Positions 13,317 to 19,848 of a stretch of DNA of 34,300 bases are shown here, piece after piece. The notes beneath the pieces are model-generated. The model searched no databases. It had not been told where the DNA came from and saw only the letters and a list, made by a program, of their open reading frames with translations. The position numbers were made by a program, and so were the translations under genes. Location: NCBI GenBank assembly GCA_001920415.1, contig MNJR01000113.1:4978-39277 (forward strand), given 5' to 3'. The stretch comes from Acidobacteria bacterium 13_1_20CM_3_53_8. GTDB taxonomy: Bacteria; Acidobacteriota; Blastocatellia; Pyrinomonadales; Pyrinomonadaceae. Each line of letters opens with the position of its first letter. Position 1 is the first letter of the stretch.

Positions 13317-14264
13317 TCAAGCCGCCTCTTCTTTCGTCAACTCTTTATATTCAAGGTTAGGCGATGCAATGAGCCGAAGCAACGTATCACGGAACAGGTA
13401 AGGGTTATTCCGATTATTGAAACGAAACTCAAATTCATCTAGGTAACGGTCAAGATGCTTCTCAGAAACTTGATGATACGCGCCAATGATAGAACGCTTG
13501 AACAGAGACCATACGCTCTCAACCGTGTTCGTGTGAGCCTCGCCGCGCACATATTCGCCCAAGTGATGATTGACTGTTTCGTGGCGCGTGTTCTCATCTT
13601 CAATTCCGTTATAGGCAGGCCACGTATCAGTCATAACGCATTCGGTCGAATCATCAAGGCAGGCTTTGATGAAGTTATGAAGCGTGCGACGATCATTAGA
13701 CTTCTCAACCTTGAGACGAACGCCGCCGCCGCGCTGAATCGCTCCGAGAACCATTGCCTTGCCAACTGCGCCGCGACCTTGAATAACTTTCTCTCTACGG
13801 CTTCGGTGCATGTTCTTAGCCTTGCCGCCTATGTACGTTTCGTCAACCTCTACAATCTCTTTGAGAAGCGATGTGTCAGCATCCGCGACAGCCGCGCGTA
13901 CACGGTGGCAGAGATACCATGCGGTTTTGTAGGCCACGCCAAGCGTGCGCTTGAGTTGCAGAGCAGACACACCTTTTTTAGCTTCGCACATCAAATAGAC
14001 GGCCAGAAACCATTTAGTCAGAGGCAGGTGCGAGTCGTGAAAGATAGTGTCAACTTTGACGGAGAACTGATAGCCGCAAGCATCACAGGCGAACAGGCCG
14101 CGCTCGTACACGCGCGAAAGCTTCTCCGATTGGCAACGAAGACACTTTACTCCGTCCGGCCAGCGAAGATGTTCAAGGTATACGCGACAGGTTTCTTCAT
14201 CGCTGAACTTTTGCATCAAAGTGGTTAGATTGACTTCTTGTTTCTGTTTTTTAGCTTTAGCCAT
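13317..14264 (-). CDS. IS1595-family (ISXO2-like) transposase
   Basis: 315 residues. An N-terminal zinc ribbon (CLRCQ...CDACGYQF, about residues 40-67) is followed by the helical LTKWFLAVYLMCEAKKGVSALQLKRTLGVAYKTAWYLCHRVR region that defines the family. The catalytic domain has VDETYIGGK (first Asp), VMTDTWPAYN (second Asp) and AHTNTVESVWSLFKRS (the HTNxxE motif in place of a plain DDE Glu), then YLDEFEFRFNNR. All key residues are present and the frame is intact, so the enzyme could be active. AGGAG sits 9 nt before the ATG as one half of a palindrome shared with the divergent gene at 14280. It should cut and paste the surrounding 1.9-kb element. Confidence 0.95.
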   Translation of the reverse strand: MAKAKKQKQEVNLTTLMQKFSDEETCRVYLEHLRWPDGVKCLRCQSEKLSRVYERGLFACDACGYQFSVKVDTIFHDSHLPLTKWFLAVYLMCEAKKGVSALQLKRTLGVAYKTAWYLCHRVRAAVADADTSLLKEIVEVDETYIGGKAKNMHRSRREKVIQGRGAVGKAMVLGAIQRGGGVRLKVEKSNDRRTLHNFIKACLDDSTECVMTDTWPAYNGIEDENTRHETVNHHLGEYVRGEAHTNTVESVWSLFKRSIIGAYHQVSEKHLDRYLDEFEFRFNNRNNPYLFRDTLLRLIASPNLEYKELTKEEAA

Positions 14265-14553: not shown

Positions 14554-17163
14554 ATGTCAATCATGGCACAACAGGGTAGCCGAGAGTTGGGCGGAAGAGC
14601 ATATTTGCTTGGGCTGGTGGGCACATTGGCCGGGCGTAAGTTCCTCATCGAGGGCGAACGGGTCGTCATCGGGCGCGATGCTCGTGAGTGTCAGATAGTT
14701 CTCGAACAGGCCGTCATCTCGAAACGTCATGCTGTTCTTGAAATGGATGAGCGCCACCGCACCACTATCATTGACCTCAACTCGAAGCAGGGAACATTCG
14801 TCAACGGAGAGCAGGTGATGCGGCGCGAACTGAGAGACGGCGACCGCGTGGGCTTCGGGCCGGGCGGCGTGATCGCTTTTACTTATTACGCTGCCACTGC
14901 TGATACGACTCCAGTTAGTACGGAACCAGCAATAATTCCGAGCGCGTTAGAACCAGAGCGCATTCAGCCACAGCTTGCCGCGACCGTGATGGGGTACGGT
15001 AATATCGGCGCTCAATCAAGCGCTGCCACAGAAGCGACTACGAGCTTGCGTCTTGCCAACCTGCCCATGCTACGTTTGGGGCGAGCGCCTGACAATGACA
15101 TCGTTCTGGAAGCGCCAAGCGTCTCTCGCCACCATGCGGTTCTGACTTACAGCGACAACCCTCAGCCAGTTATCGCGGATCTGGGCAGCACCAACGGCAC
15201 GTTCGTCAATGGTGAACTACTTACGGAGCCGCGCCTTCTCGCTACCGATGATCTGGTTTTCCTCGGCGGCTTTCTGTTGCAGGTGAACGGGCGCAACATC
15301 AAGCGTCACGACCTGAGCGCAAGCCGAATCATCGCGCGAAACATTCATAAAGAGATAGCGAATAAGACGATTCTTAAAGACATCTCGCTGGCGATCTATC
15401 CGCGCGAGTTCGTTGGACTGATGGGCCCGTCAGGCTCCGGCAAATCAACGCTGATGGACGCGCTCAACGGCCTGCGCCCGGCAAGCCGAGGCTCTGTTTG
15501 CATTAACGACGTCGATCTTTACAGAAACTTCGACGCGCTCCGCCGCTCAATCGGTTACGTGCCTCAGCGCGACATACTGCACGATGCCTTAACCGTCGAA
15601 CGCACACTCTATTATGCTGCAAAGCTGCGCCTGCCCGGAGCGACGAAGCGGGAAGCTCTCCGGCGCGCTATAGATGATGTCATTGAAACAGTAGGCTTGA
15701 GCGAGCAGCGCGCGACGCAGTTCCGCCAGCTTTCGGGCGGGCAGCAGAAGCGCTTGAGTCTCGCGCTCGAACTTATCACCAAGCCGAACTTCATCTTTCT
15801 TGATGAGCCTACTTCTCCGCTCGATCCTGAGACCACAGAGAACATGATGCTGCTTTTCCGGCAGCTAGCCGACGAGGGGCGCATCGTGGTGATGGTCACG
15901 CACAAGTTCGAAAAATTCGGCGTGATGCACCAGATTGCGATGCTGACACGCGGCGGGAGGCTCGCCTTCTTCGGCCCGCCGCATGAGGCTTTGACGTACT
16001 TTGATTGTCAGGAGCCTGGAGACATCTACCGTCGCATCGGCGCGCGTGACCCTGACGAACTTAGCCGCTCTTTCCAGCATTCGCCGCAGTACCAGAGGTA
16101 CATCAGTAAAAGAATCGCAGAGATAGAGGATATAACGCGAACCACCGGGCCGCTGCCTCTGGATGCGACAGAAGGGCAAGGCGGCCCGGAGCGGCGCTTC
16201 GGAATCAGCCAGTGGTGGACGCTCACCAGGCGCTATCTCGAAGTGAAGCTCAAGGATAGGCGTAATACTCTGCTGCTGCTAGTGCAGGCACCCGTTGTCG
16301 CCATCCTTTTGGCGATCATCGCCGGAGACGCGCTGAACGATGCTAAGACTTTATTTATCGCTGCGATCATCTCCATCTGGTTCGGAGCCAACAACGCGAT
16401 TAGAGAGATCGTATCAGAGAATCCGATCTACACGCGCGAGCGATTGGTTAATCTAAAGATTCCTTCTTACGTCTTCTCGAAATTCGCCGTGCTGAGCGGC
16501 ATCGGTCTCGTTCAGTGCCTGCTGTTTATCAGTATTCTGGTCGCTATGGGTCGTCTAAGTAAGGGAGACTTCCTTCCGCTCACTCTAATACTCTACCTGA
16601 CATTACTGGCGGGCGCAGGCGTAGGGCTTTCCTTCTCGGCGCTGGTCAACTCGACGGAAAAAGCGATGAGCATTCTGCCGCTCATACTGATCCCGCAGTT
16701 GTTGCTGAGCGGTTTTCTCAAGCCGCTCGATGACCTGTACGTGAACGCGCGTACAGGTAAACCTGCTACCGCCGCCGAGTACCAGCAGTATGAAGATGCG
16801 AAAAGAAATTTCCCAACCGCAGTTGATAACTCTACAAGTGCCGGAGCGGTTATGCCTCCTGACCCGATAACCGAGTGGCCGGGCTTGGGCGCGGCACGAT
16901 ACGGGGCGGCGCTGATGGTGGCGCGCTGGGCTGTAGAAGCGCTTGCGCACGAAGTGAGCATTAATGATGAGAAGGCGCGTGAAAAACTTGCAACGCAGAT
17001 GACTGTAGTAGAGTATAAGCGGGTTCTCGAAGGAAGCCCGCCAGCTAATATCAAGACCGCCTACCGGCATAGAGTCTGGACGGACTTATGGTTACTCGCT
17101 CTCTTTAATCTCCTGTTCCTGGCTCTAACGATGTGGGCACTCAAGCGTAAAGACGCTTTGTGA
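14554..17163 (+). CDS. ABC transporter with two N-terminal FHA domains fused to ATPase and ABC2 membrane domain
   Basis: 869 residues. FHA 1 (about 35-105: VVIGRDAREC.., ISKRHAVLE, GTFVNG) and FHA 2 (about 172-245: LRLGRAPDNDIVL, VSRHHAVL, GSTNGTFVNG) have the phosphothreonine-binding Arg, Ser-Arg-His and Asn residues. The ATPase has Walker A GPSGSGKST (291-299), signature LSGGQQKR (393-400) and Walker B FIFLDEPTS with SPLDPET. The last 300 residues form an ABC2-type membrane domain with about six helices. The layout matches M. tuberculosis Rv1747, an FHA exporter phosphorylated by kinase PknF. A Ser/Thr kinase gene follows 185 bp downstream, supporting phosphorylation-linked export. Substrate unknown. 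The start could also be the ATG at 14563. Confidence 0.95.
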   Translation: MSIMAQQGSRELGGRAYLLGLVGTLAGRKFLIEGERVVIGRDARECQIVLEQAVISKRHAVLEMDERHRTTIIDLNSKQGTFVNGEQVMRRELRDGDRVGFGPGGVIAFTYYAATADTTPVSTEPAIIPSALEPERIQPQLAATVMGYGNIGAQSSAATEATTSLRLANLPMLRLGRAPDNDIVLEAPSVSRHHAVLTYSDNPQPVIADLGSTNGTFVNGELLTEPRLLATDDLVFLGGFLLQVNGRNIKRHDLSASRIIARNIHKEIANKTILKDISLAIYPREFVGLMGPSGSGKSTLMDALNGLRPASRGSVCINDVDLYRNFDALRRSIGYVPQRDILHDALTVERTLYYAAKLRLPGATKREALRRAIDDVIETVGLSEQRATQFRQLSGGQQKRLSLALELITKPNFIFLDEPTSPLDPETTENMMLLFRQLADEGRIVVMVTHKFEKFGVMHQIAMLTRGGRLAFFGPPHEALTYFDCQEPGDIYRRIGARDPDELSRSFQHSPQYQRYISKRIAEIEDITRTTGPLPLDATEGQGGPERRFGISQWWTLTRRYLEVKLKDRRNTLLLLVQAPVVAILLAIIAGDALNDAKTLFIAAIISIWFGANNAIREIVSENPIYTRERLVNLKIPSYVFSKFAVLSGIGLVQCLLFISILVAMGRLSKGDFLPLTLILYLTLLAGAGVGLSFSALVNSTEKAMSILPLILIPQLLLSGFLKPLDDLYVNARTGKPATAAEYQQYEDAKRNFPTAVDNSTSAGAVMPPDPITEWPGLGAARYGAALMVARWAVEALAHEVSINDEKAREKLATQMTVVEYKRVLEGSPPANIKTAYRHRVWTDLWLLALFNLLFLALTMWALKRKDAL

Positions 17164-17348: not shown

Positions 17349-19016
17349 ATGCTTTGTGTAAAATGCGGAAGATCAAACCCTAGTGACGCTCTGTACTGCA
17401 CAGGCTGTGGCACCCCGCTTCATGATGCGCCGCAGTCTCCTCGAACGCCTGACTACGCGAAGACGTTTAGCGACGCGACGGCACAGCTTAACGAGCAGGT
17501 AGCCGATGCTCTGGTCGGGCGCACTCTTGATGGCAGATACCGCCTGGATGAAAGGCTCGGCGTAGGCGGCATGGGCGCTGTCTACGTCGCCACGCGCCTG
17601 CACATCGGTGACACCGTAGCAGTCAAGGTTCTTCACCAGGAGCATGTCACAGACCGTCAGTCGGCGGAGCGTTTTAGGCGCGAAGCACAGATGGCGGCTC
17701 GTCTCAAACATCCGAACGCGGTCAGCGTCTATGACTTCGGCATCACGCCCGACGGGTTGATGTACTTGGTCATGGAGCAGGTCGAAGGCCGCAGCCTGCG
17801 GCAGATCATCAAACAAGAGGGGCCGCTGACACTTTCGGCGGCGACGGATATTTCCATGCAGGTGTGCGCGGCTCTGGATGAAGCGCACCGGCAGAACATC
17901 ATTCACCGCGACATCAAACCCGATAACATCATCGTCAACATGAGACCGAGCGGCCTTCACGTCAAGGTTCTCGATTTCGGCATAGCCAAACTGCGCGACC
18001 TGACAACCAGCAACTTGACGGAGACGGGAAGCGTGATGGGCACGCCGCACTACATGTCGCCGGAACAGTGCATGGGCGAAGAGCTAGACAGCCGCTCGGA
18101 CATCTCGCCGCAGCCGCGCTCTATAAAGGCTGACATCTCGCCTGCGGTCGAAGCGGTCTTGCTGCACGCCCTTGAGAAGCGACGCGAAGCGCGGCCACAG
18201 ACCGCCGGGGCGCTGGCGCAAGAACTATCCGCTGCCGTTCATGGGACTATGCCTTCACGAACGACTGTTCCATCCCTAATAGATAAAGCCCCGACCACAG
18301 GAAGAACAGAGGCACAGCCCACGCATGAAATGGAACCAACTCTCGCCTTCTCAACACCGAGTTCTGGTAGAAAGCTGACCATGCCGGGCGGCGCAGGAGG
18401 ACAAGTTAAAAAGAGAAACACACCTTTGATTATCGGTGGAGTCCTTGCGGTACTCATCGGGATAGTAGCAGTGGCCGCAATCACGATCATGGTAATGAAA
18501 TGGACTCAGACATCTCCAACCGAACCGGGCAGCAATCAAGCGAACACTTCCAACAGTGGACAGGCGGGAAACACACAAAGCAGAGCGAATAATAATTCGG
18601 GGCCAACACGGTCGGCTTCACCACAGCCATCCGCAACCGAATCAGCCGATGATCTGTTCAACTCGCTAAGTCGCAGGGGACGATCCAATCCCACTCCCGC
18701 CGAGGTTTCTCAGATCAGTTCAGACCTGATGGCGGCGGAAACGAAATATCCAACTGATTATCGTTTCACTTACGAGCGCGCCAGGCTTTACATCAGACCA
18801 CACGAATCACATGATGAAGCCTTCAGCCTCTTTGCGCGCGCAGGACAAAAGGCGATTGACAATAACAGGTCTGACCAGATGCTTAGCGATCTGACGAGAG
18901 ACGGAAACAGCGATGCCCAAATCCATAAACTCACAGACCATCCAGAATGGAAGGTTTTGCAGCAGGCGTTGAGGAATAGAGATAGGAGCGCATTAGAAAC
19001 ATTGATTCACCATTAA
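17349..19016 (+). CDS. Zinc-ribbon Ser/Thr protein kinase with apparent in-frame C-lobe deletion
   Basis: 555 residues, GAGGTGG upstream. A zinc ribbon (CVKCGRSNP..YCTGCG, residues 3-21) precedes a Hanks-type kinase: glycine loop GVGGMG (71-76), Lys93 in VAVKVL, catalytic HRDIKPDN (186-193), DFG (209-211), and GTPHYMSPE (231-239). After SRSDIS (248-253), where YSLG and helices F-G with the LTG.PF segment should follow, the protein jumps to PQPRSIKADISPAVEAVLLHALEKRREARPQT, the helix H-I region with the conserved Arg. About 35-45 residues are missing without a frame break. A proline/threonine-rich linker, one membrane helix (about 359-384) and an outer domain with a helical (TPR-like) look follow. 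The enzyme may be poorly active or a pseudokinase. It probably acts on the FHA-ABC exporter encoded just upstream. Confidence 0.88.
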   Translation: MLCVKCGRSNPSDALYCTGCGTPLHDAPQSPRTPDYAKTFSDATAQLNEQVADALVGRTLDGRYRLDERLGVGGMGAVYVATRLHIGDTVAVKVLHQEHVTDRQSAERFRREAQMAARLKHPNAVSVYDFGITPDGLMYLVMEQVEGRSLRQIIKQEGPLTLSAATDISMQVCAALDEAHRQNIIHRDIKPDNIIVNMRPSGLHVKVLDFGIAKLRDLTTSNLTETGSVMGTPHYMSPEQCMGEELDSRSDISPQPRSIKADISPAVEAVLLHALEKRREARPQTAGALAQELSAAVHGTMPSRTTVPSLIDKAPTTGRTEAQPTHEMEPTLAFSTPSSGRKLTMPGGAGGQVKKRNTPLIIGGVLAVLIGIVAVAAITIMVMKWTQTSPTEPGSNQANTSNSGQAGNTQSRANNNSGPTRSASPQPSATESADDLFNSLSRRGRSNPTPAEVSQISSDLMAAETKYPTDYRFTYERARLYIRPHESHDEAFSLFARAGQKAIDNNRSDQMLSDLTRDGNSDAQIHKLTDHPEWKVLQQALRNRDRSALETLIHH

Positions 19017-19019
19017 TAG

Positions 19020-19155
19020 TAGGAGTTACGCAGTTGATAGGAAAGTGCAGCAAAAGTCAGTACCGCCTGCGGTAGCGGGCGGGTCGTTAGTCGCAGTCAC
19101 ACCCGCCCGCTACCGCAGGCGGTACTGACACGCTCGTTCAACTGCGTAACTCCTA
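19020..19155. mobile_element. MITE with nested REP-like palindrome, copy 2, flanked by a 5-bp target duplication
   Basis: Perfect 18-bp terminal inverted repeats, TAGGAGTTACGCAGTTGA (19020-19037) and its complement (19138-19155), enclose a 29-bp-arm palindrome (19056-19084 and 19101-19129) with a 16-nt loop. AATAG flanks the element on both sides (19015-19019 and 19156-19160), a clear 5-bp target duplication. The left copy overlaps the kinase stop codon (19014-19016), so insertion left the protein end unchanged. The element encodes nothing. Its inner arms match the element at 2098-2171 exactly. It could also act as a terminator for the kinase transcript. Confidence 0.92.
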
Positions 19156-19308
19156 AATAGAAGTTATCAGAAGCTTAACGAGGAAATCTAAACCCAGGAA
19201 GAGCTTCGCAGAAAAGTTGACTCCCGAATATTTGGTGTGTATCCGCTCCTAGACGTGTGACCGCTCACTTTACTCAGTGACAGGACAGCCTTGCCCAAGA
19301 CCACTTCT

Positions 19309-19331
19309 TATATCAGCGCTCTGGTGATATA
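19309..19331. promoter_or_regulatory. Inverted repeat upstream of the copper module
   Basis: TATATCA (19309-19315) and TGATATA (19325-19331) form a perfect 7-bp inverted repeat with a 9-nt spacer, 49 bp before the first gene of the copper-related run. The size suits a dimeric regulator. No regulator gene is adjacent, so its identity is unknown. Confidence 0.35.
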
Positions 19332-19380
19332 GTTAGGCACCTGATTAAGCTCCAAAAGGCATCATAGGCTTTCTGCTTTT

Positions 19381-19848
19381 ATGCGCAAGCGTTTTCTCTC
19401 TACCGTCGTGCTGACCTTCGCGCTCATCTTGAGCGCGTGGGGCAATGTGCTGGCTGCCGCCCTCTGCCCGCACATGGGACAAGATCACGCTTGCTGCCAT
19501 GCACAGCTTGCACATCATCCCAGAAATCATCACGAAATGGCTGGTATGCAGATGGATGAGATGCAGACGGAGCCAGTGGCAGAACAGAGGACGGAGGCAA
19601 ACGCCTTCAGCCAACTAGCCGAGCCGTGCGAGCACTGCATGAGCCACTCGCAGTTAGCGACATCATCAGCCACTTTGCGAGAGGCCGATCAAACGAAGCG
19701 CGGTGAAGATGTCGCTGCGCCGCACGCTTTATCAAAGTCCATGTCAATCGCCACCTCATTCGTAACAGTCGTTCCCGCAAGAGAGCACTCTCCGCCATGT
19801 GCATCGCTTTCCGCCCGTCACGTCCTTATCAGCATCTTCCGTATTTAG
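19381..19848 (+). CDS. Small secreted His/Cys/Met-rich protein, putative copper binding
   Basis: 155 residues with a signal peptide (RKRFLSTVVLTFALILSAWGNVLAA). The mature part begins with a dense set of soft-metal ligands: CPHMGQDHACCHAQLAHH, then NHHEMAGMQMDEMQ, and later CEHCMSHSQ. The rest is low-complexity and polar. No enzyme motif is present. Such clusters of His, Cys and Met suit Cu(I)/Cu(II) binding in the periplasm, and the next genes (Met-rich outer-membrane protein, CopC-CopD) support this. The start ATG has no strong Shine-Dalgarno sequence. It might be compared with DUF2946-like proteins, but I cannot confirm that. Function as a copper chaperone or sponge is inferred. Confidence 0.65.
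   Translation: MRKRFLSTVVLTFALILSAWGNVLAAALCPHMGQDHACCHAQLAHHPRNHHEMAGMQMDEMQTEPVAEQRTEANAFSQLAEPCEHCMSHSQLATSSATLREADQTKRGEDVAAPHALSKSMSIATSFVTVVPAREHSPPCASLSARHVLISIFRI

Follow-up and report, generated by a model that had tools for sequence, protein, structure and literature searches.

The 136-bp element at positions 19020–19155 of the window (the whole stretch of 34,300 nucleotides that was analyzed) is very probably built of two layers: a MITE with the ends of a DDE-type (IS701-type) insertion sequence (IS) and, within it, a REPIN-like palindrome carried as a passenger. RAYT enzymes are generally regarded as what REP sequences rely on. Under the above reading, DDE-type miniature elements would provide a second route of multiplication for a REP doublet, one that leaves clean target duplications behind, with one selfish element being spread as the passenger of another.

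The element is a nested set of perfect inverted repeats. Its two 18-nt terminal inverted repeats are 100% complementary (19020–19037, TAGGAGTTACGCAGTTGA, forward strand; 19138–19155, reverse strand), the left one being matched exactly by either end of an IS of 1044 bp from a sister genus (L104, see below) and the right one being recognized by this complementarity and by the genome-wide hits of the end. Inside these lie a long subterminal MITE segment (19038–19055, TAGGAAAGTGCAGCAAAA, forward), which is common to the copy L002 and nearly so to L004 and L005, and a short one (19130–19137, ACGCTCGT, forward), delimited by comparison of the copies. Between the two segments stands the core palindrome, with REP arms of 29 nt each that are again 100% complementary (19056–19084, GTCAGTACCGCCTGCGGTAGCGGGCGGGT, forward; 19101–19129, the inverted copy, reverse) and a 16-nt loop (19085–19100, CGTTAGTCGCAGTCAC, forward), which recurs, one base apart, in two other copies at unrelated sites. 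The motif AATAG abuts the element on either side (19015–19019 and 19156–19160). The position, the 18-bp ends, the AATAG pair and the palindrome had all been described correctly in an earlier note on this DNA. Since the single-strand DNA fold of the element has a z-score of −15.2 versus shuffles, and since its end and arm sequences recur in the genome as opposed to zero hits for the controls, we do not consider it a product of chance.

The insertion point is three bases past the stop codon of a Ser/Thr protein kinase gene (17349–19016, forward strand; Pfam PF00069, E = 2.6e-40). The last two bases of its stop, TAA (19014–19016), are overlapped by the duplicated AATAG, and the stop was left unaltered by the insertion. 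One alternative is that the element is mainly a terminator or mRNA stabilizer of the kinase, selected at this site; a terminator role had been voiced as a side possibility in the earlier note. A very strong hairpin does follow directly upon the stop (in RNA form, −101.7 kcal/mol for 181 nt, z = −13.4), but it has no T-tract on the kinase (+) strand, and the region 18900–19400 shows neither a promoter-like site nor, on the kinase strand, a terminator-like one. Together with the near-identical copies at unrelated sites and the intact target duplication at this one, this makes such a role improbable as the reason for the element's presence. The hairpin may affect the 3' end or the decay of the kinase mRNA as a side effect; the sequence bears no sign of its being kept for this purpose, and the copy beside the kinase is probably near neutral. 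Immediately before the kinase, the window encodes an FHA-FHA-ABC transporter fusion (14554–17160, forward strand). As FHA domains bind phosphothreonine, the kinase may have this fusion as its substrate or partner. An IS1595-type (ISXO2-like) transposase gene with a zinc ribbon (13317–14264, reverse strand) lies two genes upstream of the kinase.

The outer layer is a repeat family with its own history of transposition. In the 6.1-Mb genome the 18-bp end has hit counts of 28/29 at up to two mismatches, versus none for a reversed-pattern control; counting the element at the kinase, its own Pyrinomonadaceae genome holds about 28 copies. Paired ends yielded 25 distinct elements with flanks, mostly of 134–136 bp, followed by forms of 158 and 191–216 bp and a single one of 103 bp (L064, target duplication GAATG), which has the same ends and no palindrome. 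Exact flanking duplications are present at 18 of these 25 copies (5 bp in 11, 6 bp in 7), as against 6 of 600 mispaired combinations that join the left flank of one copy to the right flank of another, and the duplicated sequence differs at almost every one of the 18; the AATAG pair is therefore not a coincidence. The remaining seven copies have imperfect or no flanking repeats, as is expected of older or rearranged copies. An unusual configuration is seen at L010 (G000:C86:63797-63930), which is flanked by an inverted rather than a direct repeat (ATTGAATCAAT / ATTGATTCAAT), as though the element had inserted mid-way into another palindrome.

We also scanned 119 genomes of the same family, Pyrinomonadaceae; a second genome of the element's own genus is not among them. 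The 18-bp ends occur in 14 of them, from 8 of the 29 genera, and the copies in these relatives display exact duplications of at least 5 bp in 16 of 29 cases versus 8 of 812 mispaired ones. The sister genera possess REP-less copies of 103–124 bp with the same ends, and also MITEs with other cores. Six loci of these genera (L116, L117, L118, L119, L122 and L123) combine the 18-bp ends with other palindromes (e.g., AAAACAGGCTGACAGCCTG, CAGGATGGACAGGAT and CGAATAGTTGACAGCGAACAG), and target duplications are seen at most of these. In two sister genomes, G011 and G014, the core palindromes have few copies (4/6 and 3/1 hits, respectively), so that for these two there is no support for an abundant REP in each MITE of this kind. 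Well beyond the family, the exact 18-bp end is found in contigs (L194–L273) titled as belonging to, among many phyla, Chloroflexota, Desulfobacteraceae, Thiotrichaceae, Planctomycetota and archaea (Methanosarcina and Methanothrix); the IS or its MITEs seem to be very widespread.

Full-length IS with identical or nearly identical ends, for which the earlier note had proposed a search, are present in the relatives at four loci (L104, L105, L118 and L132), with lengths of 1044–1047 bp. The first of these, at 1044 bp, has identical 18-bp ends, a target duplication of CATTG and one gene of 331 residues, whereas L132 represents the 1047-bp form; the duplication is of 5 bp at both L104 and L105. Going by its matches to the NCBIfam model of the IS701 family (NF049921; 372 bits against a cut-off of 250, E = 2.2e-111) and to the Pfam domains PF13546 (DDE_5) and PF01609 (DDE_Tnp_1), the L104 protein is a DDE transposase. 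Its gene (L104:971-1966, reverse strand) is laid out such that the last codons and the stop fall within the right terminal repeat, as part of TCAACTGCGTAA. The terminal inverted repeats and a transposase that clears the curated NF049921 cut-off are in keeping with the IS701 family; however, a review of the IS4 group (PMC2266710) describes the members of this family as being 1400–1550 bp long and as duplicating exactly 4 bp of their target, as against the 1044–1047 bp and the 5–6 bp duplications seen here. Hence, we call the parent IS IS701-type by its transposase only. In the MITE-bearing genome itself, no autonomous IS was found within 2.5 kb of the ends, and a search of the assembly (95.9% complete) for the IS transposase, run without a positive control, gave no match, so that by this search the MITEs look like orphans there.

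The core palindrome, in turn, is a REPIN-like repeat that is independent of the MITE ends. Its 29-bp arm has hit counts of 132/130 in the genome, with no hits for the controls. Looking for end and arm separately in the genome and its relatives, as had been suggested, revealed differing distributions: the palindrome is present in 70 of the 119 family genomes (22 of 29 genera) as opposed to 14 of the 119 for the ends; at least 56 of those 70 are without the ends, and in three genomes (G012, G013 and G017) the ends are present but the arm is not. From the approximately 130 palindromes of the genome, 68 were sampled with their flanks, the sample being enriched for MITE copies like that of the window; about 17 of these 68 are free and the rest are within MITEs, the classes having been re-read by hand and being approximate. 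The free palindromes have sharp limits (GTCAG/CTGAC), unrelated flanks and loops mostly of 33–38 nt, while the loops across the sampled palindromes range from 14 to 95 nt. At eight loci of the genome (L018, L044, L056, L061, L063, L065, L184 and L193) the REP loop holds a further, purine-rich palindrome of 80–95 nt (AAAAGTAAAAAGGCAAAAGG type), and this third layer is seen in MITE-borne and free REPs alike.

In its two inverted conserved REPs with a variable loop, its capacity to form a hairpin, its more than 100 copies and the RAYT-like gene flanked by copies, the palindrome matches the REPINs of Bertels and Rainey 2011 (PMC3116915); it differs from them in that about half of the copies (~60/130) lie in MITEs of two families. 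It further departs from classical REPs, which bear a GTAG or GT(A/G)G tag at their end (PMC3733652, PMC2817692), in that GTCAG stands at the arm's outer end and GTAG occurs only within the arm. The genome has four Y1 (IS200-like) genes. One of these, on contig C23, is complete (169 residues) and is placed between two palindrome copies, an arrangement like that of REP-RAYT systems, where a Y1 gene is flanked by inverted palindrome copies (PMC2817692). The best curated match of its product is the REP-associated tyrosine transposase, at 25.6 bits against a cut-off of 80 (NCBIfam). Homologs of this protein are found in 68 of the 119 family genomes, and at 11 of the 30 homolog loci that were taken, including the first seven listed, inward-facing arm-like sequences (up to 7 mismatches) lie on both sides within 600 bp, versus no loci with a shuffled-arm control. 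This Y1 protein is thus likely to be the enzyme of the inner layer, and free REPINs would be moved by it.

The same palindrome is also carried by a second MITE family. The window holds a member at about 2052–2201, with the ends TATAGCGAGTTGCAATTG / CAATTGCAAACCGTAATA, enclosing a further copy of the palindrome with 29-bp arms and a 16-nt loop (2098–2171) that was picked up by the arm hits in the window; it overlaps two predicted reverse-strand ORFs (1743–2192 and 2152–2895). Elements of this family are 133–150 bp long and have the ends TATAGCGGTTCTCACTTG or TATTACGGTTTGCAATTG with the same arms inside. Their ends suggest an element that targets TA; no parent IS for them was present at the loci examined. 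The second-family end has hit counts of 36/32 in the genome; taken with the 28/29 of the first family, these place about half of the genome's ~130 palindromes in MITEs of one family or the other. Consequently, REP copy number is not a measure of RAYT activity alone.

These observations bear on a second alternative, namely that the palindrome is intrinsic to the MITE, as the long stem of a foldback element, and that the free palindromes are decayed MITEs that have lost their ends. In its favor, L064 (103 bp) is the only full-length copy with these ends in the genome whose core lacks a palindrome, and a REP-free form of exactly these subterminal segments (~62 bp expected) was not found. Nevertheless, free copies that stop sharply at GTCAG/CTGAC amidst unrelated flanks, mostly with different loops, are hard to view as remnants of MITEs; nor would such decay account for the many palindrome-bearing genomes without the ends, the presence of the arms in another MITE family that has different ends, or the REP-less and other-core MITEs of the sister genera. 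We regard this alternative as largely refuted and highly improbable. Instead, the central proposal of the earlier note, that a REP-type palindrome was carried by a DDE-type element, is borne out by ends that exist apart from the core (L064, the REP-less copies of other genera and the full-length IS), by a core that exists apart from the ends, by the target duplications with their site-specific sequences and by the parent IS. The carrier model thereby withstands both conditions that the earlier note had named as refuting it.

That the two layers traveled together follows from copies with near-identical composites in unrelated surroundings. Across all 136 bp, with the loop and the subterminal segments counted in, five pairs of copies show 95.6–99.3% identity, whereas the identity of their left flanks is no more than 18–32%. 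For example, L001/L002, L001/L003 and L004/L005 are 99.3%, 97.1% and 99.3% identical over the 136 bp, with left flanks at 20–32%, and a single loop is common to the window's copy, L002 and L003. Further, the internal position of the palindrome is the same in almost every MITE copy, which points to one or a few original nestings. The least likely alternative, that a Y1 enzyme inserted each REPIN separately into resident MITEs so that the composite never moved as a unit, could appeal to the several loop types in one MITE family (14–16, 36–38 and 81–95 nt), but it is at odds with this constant position and with the near-identical composites that have target duplications of their own, and exchange between identical arms would better account for the variety of loops.

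In light of this, we favor the following course of events for the two-layer element. The outer layer would be a non-autonomous MITE whose 18-bp ends match those of a DDE (IS701-type) IS of approximately 1.05 kb; the transposase of this IS would have acted on it in trans in the past, inserting it with a target duplication of 5–6 bp, and would later have been lost from this genome. The inner layer, a REPIN-like REP doublet with a RAYT-like Y1 gene flanked by its copies, would have been spreading on its own and at some point came to lie between two MITE ends. As REP-less MITEs have the same ends and other cores, this entry was probably an insertion of the REPIN into an existing MITE. The composite would then have multiplied by way of the IS ends, with the REP as passenger.

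REP dimers within longer palindromes are already known: in Anabaena variabilis (GTAG-15) and H. neapolitanus (CGTC-1) they regularly occur in such a setting, and the outer repeats, none of which were found without a REP, were termed target palindromes in a paragraph of PMC3733652 (section 7). The outer consensus of A. variabilis, which starts with TATAGGA and ends with TCCTATA, in our reading resembles a MITE end. Common to those cases and ours is a REP dimer centered within a longer inverted repeat that is unrelated to it. The difference is that those palindromes are described in that paragraph without a target duplication or a parent IS, whereas the ends in our case are linked to a DDE IS, and there are duplications, relatives without a REP and movement as a unit. 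The element also resembles the classical MITEs such as Nezha, NEMIS and RUP (PMC3733652) in being short and non-coding, with inverted ends, a target duplication and a parent IS elsewhere; it differs from them in having as its core a second, independently spreading repeat. Over and above the precedent of PMC3733652, the new points are that a parent IS has been identified, that target duplications are present and that one palindrome occurs in two carriers. Our search of the open-licence literature found no paper on such elements in Pyrinomonadaceae and none tying IS701-type MITEs to REPs.

A broader, rather speculative possibility, which we consider unlikely on present evidence, is that the loop of a MITE hairpin, being single-stranded, is a favored landing place for REPINs, and the REPIN loop in turn for further palindromes. 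Nesting would then be a general route by which stacked elements come to be multiplied by whichever transposase recognizes the outermost ends. Within the present family, one set of ends encloses REPINs, other palindromes, or palindromes rich in purines that lie inside the REPIN loop.
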